33,267 nt of DNA from Accumulibacter sp. (GTDB lineage: Bacteria > Pseudomonadota > Gammaproteobacteria > Burkholderiales > Rhodocyclaceae), in assembly GCA_031280565.1 (NCBI GenBank), contig JAITGN010000075.1, positions 1 to 33,267 on the forward strand, in the 5' to 3' direction. A program made the translations under genes and the position numbers. The notes beneath the pieces were generated by a model. The model did not search any database. It was not told the origin of the DNA and saw only the letters and a program-made list of their open reading frames with translations. This document shows positions 1 through 31,345 of this stretch, one piece after another. Position 1 is the stretch's first letter. Every line of letters begins with the position of its first letter.

Positions 1-240
1 CCTTACCCTTCGACAACGCCCATCTCCGTTCGTACTGAGCCTGTCGAAGTATGAACGGACGCTCCAGCCTTTCCAGTCCTTACCCTTCGACAAGCTCAGG
101 GCGAACGGACTGGAAAGGCAGCCTGCGACAGGCTTCCTTCGACAGGCTCAGGACGGAGCAGGGCGAACGGATTGAAAAACACGACTTCGACAAGCGCTCA
201 GGACAGGCAGAGCGGATAGATTGGAAAACATGCCCTATCT
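1..240. repeat. Cluster of dispersed TTCGACA(A/G)GCTCAGG / CCGTTCG repeat modules with internal inverted repeats (left copy)
   Basis: Repeated 'cccttcgacaagctcaggg', 'gcctgtcgaagtatgaacgg' and 'gcgaacgga' units. Perfect 13-bp inverted repeat GCCTTTCCAGTCC (67-79) / GGACTGGAAAGGC (107-119). Near-identical block at 31125-31325. Confidence 0.9.
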
Positions 241-30962: not shown

Positions 30963-31011
30963 ATCATCAACGGCATCTATTTCCGTTCGTGCTGGTTTTG
31001 CCGGAACACAT

Positions 31012-31345
31012 TGACAACGCTTATCTCCGTTCGTGCTGAGCGTGTCGAAGTATGAACGGACGCGCCAGGTCGTAAATACTCTTTTCCAGTCCTGATTCTT
31101 TCTTTAAGTAGAGTTTTTCAATCCTTACCCTTCGACAACGCCTATCTCCGTTCGTGCTGAGCCTGTCGAAGTATGAACGGACGCTCCAGCCTTTCCAGTC
31201 CTTACCCTTCGACAGGCTTCCTTCGACAAGCTCAAGACAGGCAGGGCGAACGGACTGGAAAGGCACTCTCCGACAGACTTCCCTCGACAAGCTCAGGACG
31301 GCGCAAGGCGAACGGATTGAAAAACATGGCTTCTTTCGACAGGAG
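31012..31345. repeat. Cluster of TTCGACA repeat modules with nested inverted repeats (right copy)
   Basis: Near-identical to 1-180. Nested perfect IRs: GTTTTTCAATCC (31113-31124)/GGATTGAAAAAC (31314-31325) and GCCTTTCCAGTCC (31189-31201)/GGACTGGAAAGGC (31252-31264). Additional partial tandem unit at 31012-31065. Confidence 0.92.

Follow-up and report, generated by a model that had tools for sequence, protein, structure and literature searches.

According to the descriptions given by Di Nocera et al. in 2013 (PMC3733652), most REPs fall into the GTAG or the CGTC superfamily. RAYT (REP-associated tyrosine) transposases are thought to spread REPs (PMC3116915, PMC8266576), while the 2013 survey, as far as its text describes the CGTC REPs, found no dedicated transposase for that group (PMC3733652). 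GTAG REPs and their dimers, the REPINs, are portrayed as short tagged hairpins of high copy number, which form head-to-head dimers 20-100 bp apart, show complementary stem changes, lie at gene 3' ends and have some copies within ORFs (PMC3733652, PMC3116915). The CGTC REPs, including dRS3 and RPE-4/RPE-6, are described as mainly head-to-head dimers that are abundant in alphaproteobacteria and partly intragenic (PMC3733652). The repeats analyzed here have all of these traits in common with the two groups, including the apparent lack of a dedicated transposase in most carriers. Our starting point was a nested inverted repeat in a 33,267-nt stretch of DNA from Accumulibacter sp. (referred to as the window); this repeat belongs to a small hairpin DNA element that exists in hundreds of copies.

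The original prediction had described, at positions 31113-31325, two nested modules with inverted arms around a common core, and the positions it gave for arms, core and inverted repeats were correct. The outer arms (31113-31124, plus strand, GTTTTTCAATCC, haplotype A; 31314-31325, plus strand, GGATTGAAAAAC) form an exact inverted repeat over 12/12 positions and the inner arms (31189-31201, plus strand, GCCTTTCCAGTCC, haplotype B; 31252-31264, plus strand, GGACTGGAAAGGC) over 13/13. A third inverted repeat, 31160-31171/31207-31218, had been overlooked, and so had a full REP hairpin enclosed by the outer arms (31148-31180, plus strand), which consists of the tag CCGTTCG, the triplet TGC, the loop TGAGCCTGTCGAA at 31158-31170, the triplet GTA and the complementary tag TGAACGG. 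The left core of the outer module, TTACCCTTCGACA, is located at 31125-31137 (plus strand). That of the inner module (31202-31214, plus strand) starts an inverted REP, which together with the hairpin at 31148-31180 makes up a REP+/REP- pair of the REPIN type. On the minus strand, the inner module carries a degenerate outer loop (31208-31220, GAAGCCTGTCGAA, two mismatches) and an exact nested second loop (31222-31234, TGAGCTTGTCGAA, flanked by TCT and GGA), and the right half of the outer module a loop with one mismatch (31283-31295, TGAGCTTGTCGAG, flanked by TCC and GGA). An additional REP hairpin is present at 31027-31059 on the plus strand (loop TGAGCGTGTCGAA at 31037-31049) and a degenerate REP fragment, CTATTTCCGTTCGTGCTG, lies upstream of the composite at 30977-30994. 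A second copy of the composite, likewise missed at first, occupies positions 1-180 (plus strand), where it is cut by the contig end; it contains a REP hairpin (26-58), B arms (67-79/107-119), inverted loops (86-98 and 138-150) and the right A arm (169-180). Next to it, at 243-620, resides a truncated IS630-type (DDE_3) transposase gene, the sole DDE_3 match in the genome. The core occurs four times in the window against 0.5 occurrences expected even with two mismatches permitted, and folding of the 213-nt stretch 31113-31325 beats that of dinucleotide shuffles with z values of -5.9 (RNA) and -7.4 (DNA).

A genome-wide search for the core, proposed along with the original prediction, returned 211 exact copies of TTACCCTTCGACA in the 2.16-Mb Accumulibacter genome as opposed to one with the reversed-pattern control. 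For the motif TTCGACARGCTCAG, the corresponding numbers were 581 and 0. Within the genus, one congener (G002) has 101 copies of this motif and the other 27 have 0-13, and scattered genomes of the same phylum contain from tens to more than 100 each. An exact-pattern scan with the 30-mer TTACCCTTCGACARGCTCAGGGCGAACGGA yielded 38 stretches from several taxa, among them Gallionella, Sulfuricurvum, Cytophagales, Sphingobium, Moraxella, Aromatoleum, and deltaproteobacterial and other records. The 13-nt loop is identical across Campylobacterota, Bacteroidota and several classes of Proteobacteria. Neither the hairpin motif nor its complement nor typical translations were matched in the literature searched, which depictions confined to figures could escape.

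Reading the flanks of the copies revealed that the 13-nt loop TGAGCYTGTCGAA stays constant, while the triplet enclosing it varies from copy to copy and remains complementary. The unit is thus a REP-like hairpin of the form CCGTTYR-NNN-TGAGCYTGTCGAA-N'N'N', and it usually occurs in head-to-head pairs. The tag preceding the loop depends on the genome and reads CCGTTCG, CCGTTTG, CCGCTCA or CCGTAG. In sphingomonad-type genomes, most copies form head-to-head pairs spaced about 30 to 62 bp apart and thus arranged like REPINs, as two inverted REPs with the tags outside. In genome G271 (L423-L462), two size classes of pairs coexist, CCGTAG with a short and CCGTTYG with a long spacer. Judging from its letters, the loop could form a T-A pair, two adjacent sheared G.A pairs and a G-C pair around a 5-nt tip, CYTGT. 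The tandem G.A positions barely vary and are hence beyond the reach of covariation.

The original prediction had invoked selection for a hairpin, and a folded hairpin is indeed constrained, but the strong evidence comes from the 3 bp of stem that adjoin the 13-nt loop and not from the 12-nt arms. With 72 tagged hairpins of diverse origin aligned, and copies whose triplet had been set by the search pattern excluded, 93.5% of the cells were paired compared with 57.7% in shuffled alignments and at most 44% in slid controls; the covariation score was 0.838 as opposed to 0.193, and both-sided changes affected 53 cells as opposed to 16.9, whereby the shuffles retain the relatedness of the copies and the statistics are not tree-aware. 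Perfect complementarity was found for 224 of the 240 tagged hairpins outside the Accumulibacter genome; within that genome only 56% of the triplets are strictly Watson-Crick, many of the others being TGC/GTA with a G.T pair. An imperfect palindrome of about 20-40 bp with a covarying stem is what characterizes REPs in general, and the present hairpins have this form. In 60 head-to-head pairs from G271 and G358, positions 2, 3 and 4 pair within the hairpin at 0.93-0.98, a level reached by none of 1000 shuffles, whereas over the long range, the rival arrangement, these bases pair less often than the shuffle mean. In addition, the outer tags covary with one another. Taken together, these observations argue for two hairpins that each fold on their own beneath a shared outer stem, although by free energy alone a single long hairpin would be preferred for a pair. 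Long-spacer pairs in the two genomes (L423-L462, L333-L352) nearly always combine two hairpins with different triplets, which explains why long-range pairing of the triplet bases is below chance.

The arms of the Accumulibacter elements, studied in an alignment of roughly 89 of the 211 cores, fall into two haplotypes, A (TTTTTCAATCC) and B (CTTTCCAGTCC), with positions 4, 7, 11 and 12 of the 12 nucleotides variable. The difference between AATCC/GGATT and AGTCC/GGACT, originally read as a compensatory change, is real; taken alone, however, it is weak evidence and reflects these two haplotypes. At position 4, the compensatory site, pairing amounts to 0.70, compared with 0.52 on average and 0.70 at most in the shuffles; among the 48 clearly typed copies arms of the same haplotype are matched in 36 while an A arm is combined with a B arm in 12. 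With two haplotypes, a value for position 4 no higher than the shuffle maximum and a quarter of the copies mixed, the arms are best described as carrying one linked set of differences that was spread by copying. The related proposal of a module inserted into itself fits the anatomy, i.e., an A arm, a core, a REP plus B module and a second A arm. However, the nested composite is found again at the start of the window and at two or more further loci of the genome, so that it was copied as a unit, and its junction lies within the shared TTCGACA, which makes recombination at the core as likely as insertion. Composite arrays of the genome mix A and B arms, and across the stretches that were read the module order REP+, arm, core, arm recurs with constant polarity. 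Such a set order of several modules is reminiscent of BIMEs or mosaic REP clusters; unlike in BIMEs, the modules of the Accumulibacter genome are hairpins defined by their loop, and their 12-nt arms come in two alternative haplotypes.

As is typical for REPs, the copies are numerous, mainly extragenic and close to gene 3' ends. Pairs are usually located about 20 nt past stop codons, often between convergent genes. The four sites examined in Sphingobium and Comamonas replicons lie 17-60 nt after the stop codon between convergent genes, and a heuristic gene call for G271 placed 15 sites between convergent, seven between co-directional and one between divergent genes, with five unclear and 14 inside ORFs; the distance to the stop codon was mostly 4-50 nt. 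Some of the intragenic copies are in frame, namely those in glyS (twice), coaBC and trpD of G358 and in the linker of the dihydrolipoamide acyltransferase from G271, the glyS insertions being deduced from protein alignment. In-frame insertion of palindromes into conserved, functional protein genes is known from the Rickettsia palindromic elements (RPE), to which the resemblance is one of behaviour; in contrast to RPE, many copies of the present family are intergenic and the family spans phyla. In related genomes (L358-L374), the same two linkers of glyS, encoding the glycyl-tRNA synthetase beta subunit, hold in-frame peptides of several unrelated repeat families.

At a luciferase locus in Sphingobium, the element of one replicon corresponds to its orthologue in reverse orientation (70/73 positions inverted compared with 62/75 direct), although the flanking genes retain the same orientation. 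The bluB locus offers a comparable, though weaker, example; the element is present there in all eight aligned Sphingobium replicons while the flanks diverge. The opposite orientation of orthologous REP pairs in related Sphingobium replicons, seen between L354 (2486-2588) and L381 (about 980-1110) and between L355 and L384, is an in-place inversion. Neither the window locus, whose rumA neighbourhood shows no synteny in congeners, nor the Sphingobium loci, where the copies examined are old and shared, yielded an exact empty site that shows a target duplication.

We favour the explanation, which we regard as fairly probable, that the family is a non-autonomous, REPIN-like mobile hairpin element with neither a GTAG nor a CGTC tag. 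Its unit comprises the tag CCGTTYR, a changing yet complementary stem of 3-4 bp and the fixed 13-nt loop TGAGCYTGTCGAA, and two such hairpins arranged head to head are the usual dispersed form. An enzyme supplied in trans may recognize the folded single strand through tag and loop, and in that case the stem would stay paired while its letters drift. In the Accumulibacter genome, pairs additionally possess longer arms of 12-13 nt and have grown into mosaic arrays, probably via recombination at the shared TTCGACA core, with the window holding two such composites. A more far-reaching version appears rather doubtful to us: a cross-phylum class of loop-defined mobile hairpins whose invariant loop with its tandem G.A would be recognized by a non-RAYT enzyme in trans, so that any complementary stem would work and the elements would pass from phylum to phylum and enter genes in frame. 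The family could instead be an ordinary REP/BIME system, one more REP family moved by a RAYT (TnpA-REP) that is resident or was lost recently. Tag and hairpin, head-to-head dimers and the location behind stop codons all agree with the published accounts of REPs (PMC3733652, PMC3116915), the CCGTAG variant of G271 includes GTAG, and congener G002, with its 101 copies, does carry a RAYT. We still consider this unlikely, because the RAYT model NF047646 was without a match in 15 of the 16 carriers, among them complete genomes that hold about 40-157 copies, PF01797 is missing from the majority of the complete genomes rich in copies, neither RAYT/Y1 locus of G002 has a motif copy within the flanks retrieved, and the Y1 genes of the Accumulibacter genome are only IS200-type fragments, the best of which is interrupted. 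The RAYT/REP-type transposase suggested by the original prediction is thus not borne out, and the mobilizing enzyme in most carriers is probably not a RAYT. On the basis of the PF01797 and NF047646 searches and the flank checks, both IS200 and RAYT were rejected as drivers; IS630 was discarded since the Accumulibacter genome has only one truncated fragment. For a MITE of a resident insertion sequence, this IS630-type (DDE_3) fragment was the one observation obtained, and no target duplication was read at the copies. A founder gene flanked by solo REPs was not encountered among the sites listed for G271, G358, G450 and G189. Apart from the REP-like family, an IS200-type transposase gene of the Accumulibacter genome (L115 on C30, about 1812-1945) is split by a MITE-like insertion of about 130 bp with the ends AGTGTTCTGTCC and GGACAGAACACT and CTAG on both borders.

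It has also to be considered that selection acts on a transcribed RNA hairpin at mRNA 3' ends, a stabilizer, processing site or terminator, with spread being secondary. Convergent or co-directional sites some 20 nt past stop codons, the tolerance for G.T/G.U in the Accumulibacter genome and the bluB position conserved in the eight Sphingobium replicons despite diverging flanks would all be in line with this. Copies within coding sequences and the range from 0 to 581 copies inside one genus are hard to reconcile with such a function, and no Rfam family reached the gathering score; the only matches, to miRNA and sRNA families, were sub-threshold, and a known RNA family was therefore dismissed as the identity of the element. 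We consequently judge this explanation quite improbable. Even less credit is given to the idea that perfect stems need no selection and result from template switching or gene conversion between quasi-palindrome arms. Such processes could also invert elements in place, as observed, and generate the mosaic A/B arms of the Accumulibacter genome, but they should have perfected the long-range arms as well, whereas triplets match perfectly only inside a single hairpin and deviate from long-range pairing beyond chance.

Returning to the REPIN-like mobile hairpin, its placement relative to the described superfamilies can be stated as follows. The terminal unpaired GTAG (or GYAG/GTRG) of the GTAG superfamily is present only as CCGTAG in a subclass of G271, while most genomes, Accumulibacter included, have CCGTTCG, CCGTTTG or CCGCTCA. 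The family further differs from GTAG REPs, as these are described, in its predominant tag (CCGTTYR/CCGCTCR), in combining a variable 3-4 bp stem with a single fixed 13-nt loop common to several phyla and in the lack of a cognate RAYT in 15 of the 16 carriers. The CGTC tag, the 8-9 bp stems starting with AT, the loops of 4-5 nt and the CCA tails that the survey text reports for CGTC REPs (PMC3733652) are all absent. Families of the survey were compared by their text description, and the CCGTAG subclass may therefore already be listed among its GTAG families (PMC3733652). As the general features of REPs and of head-to-head dimers are present and this subclass is possibly on record, we do not claim a new class; the element looks like a further lineage of known REP/REPIN repeats. 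To the REPs without RAYT the present data add another REP-like family, with a simple sequence signature, which is found in complete genomes with about 40-157 copies and no RAYT and in an Accumulibacter genome with 581. Since one genus comprises carriers and non-carriers, a genome set is at hand for tracing the missing enzyme, and the combination of a fixed loop with exchangeable stems renders the recognition hypothesis directly testable in vitro.
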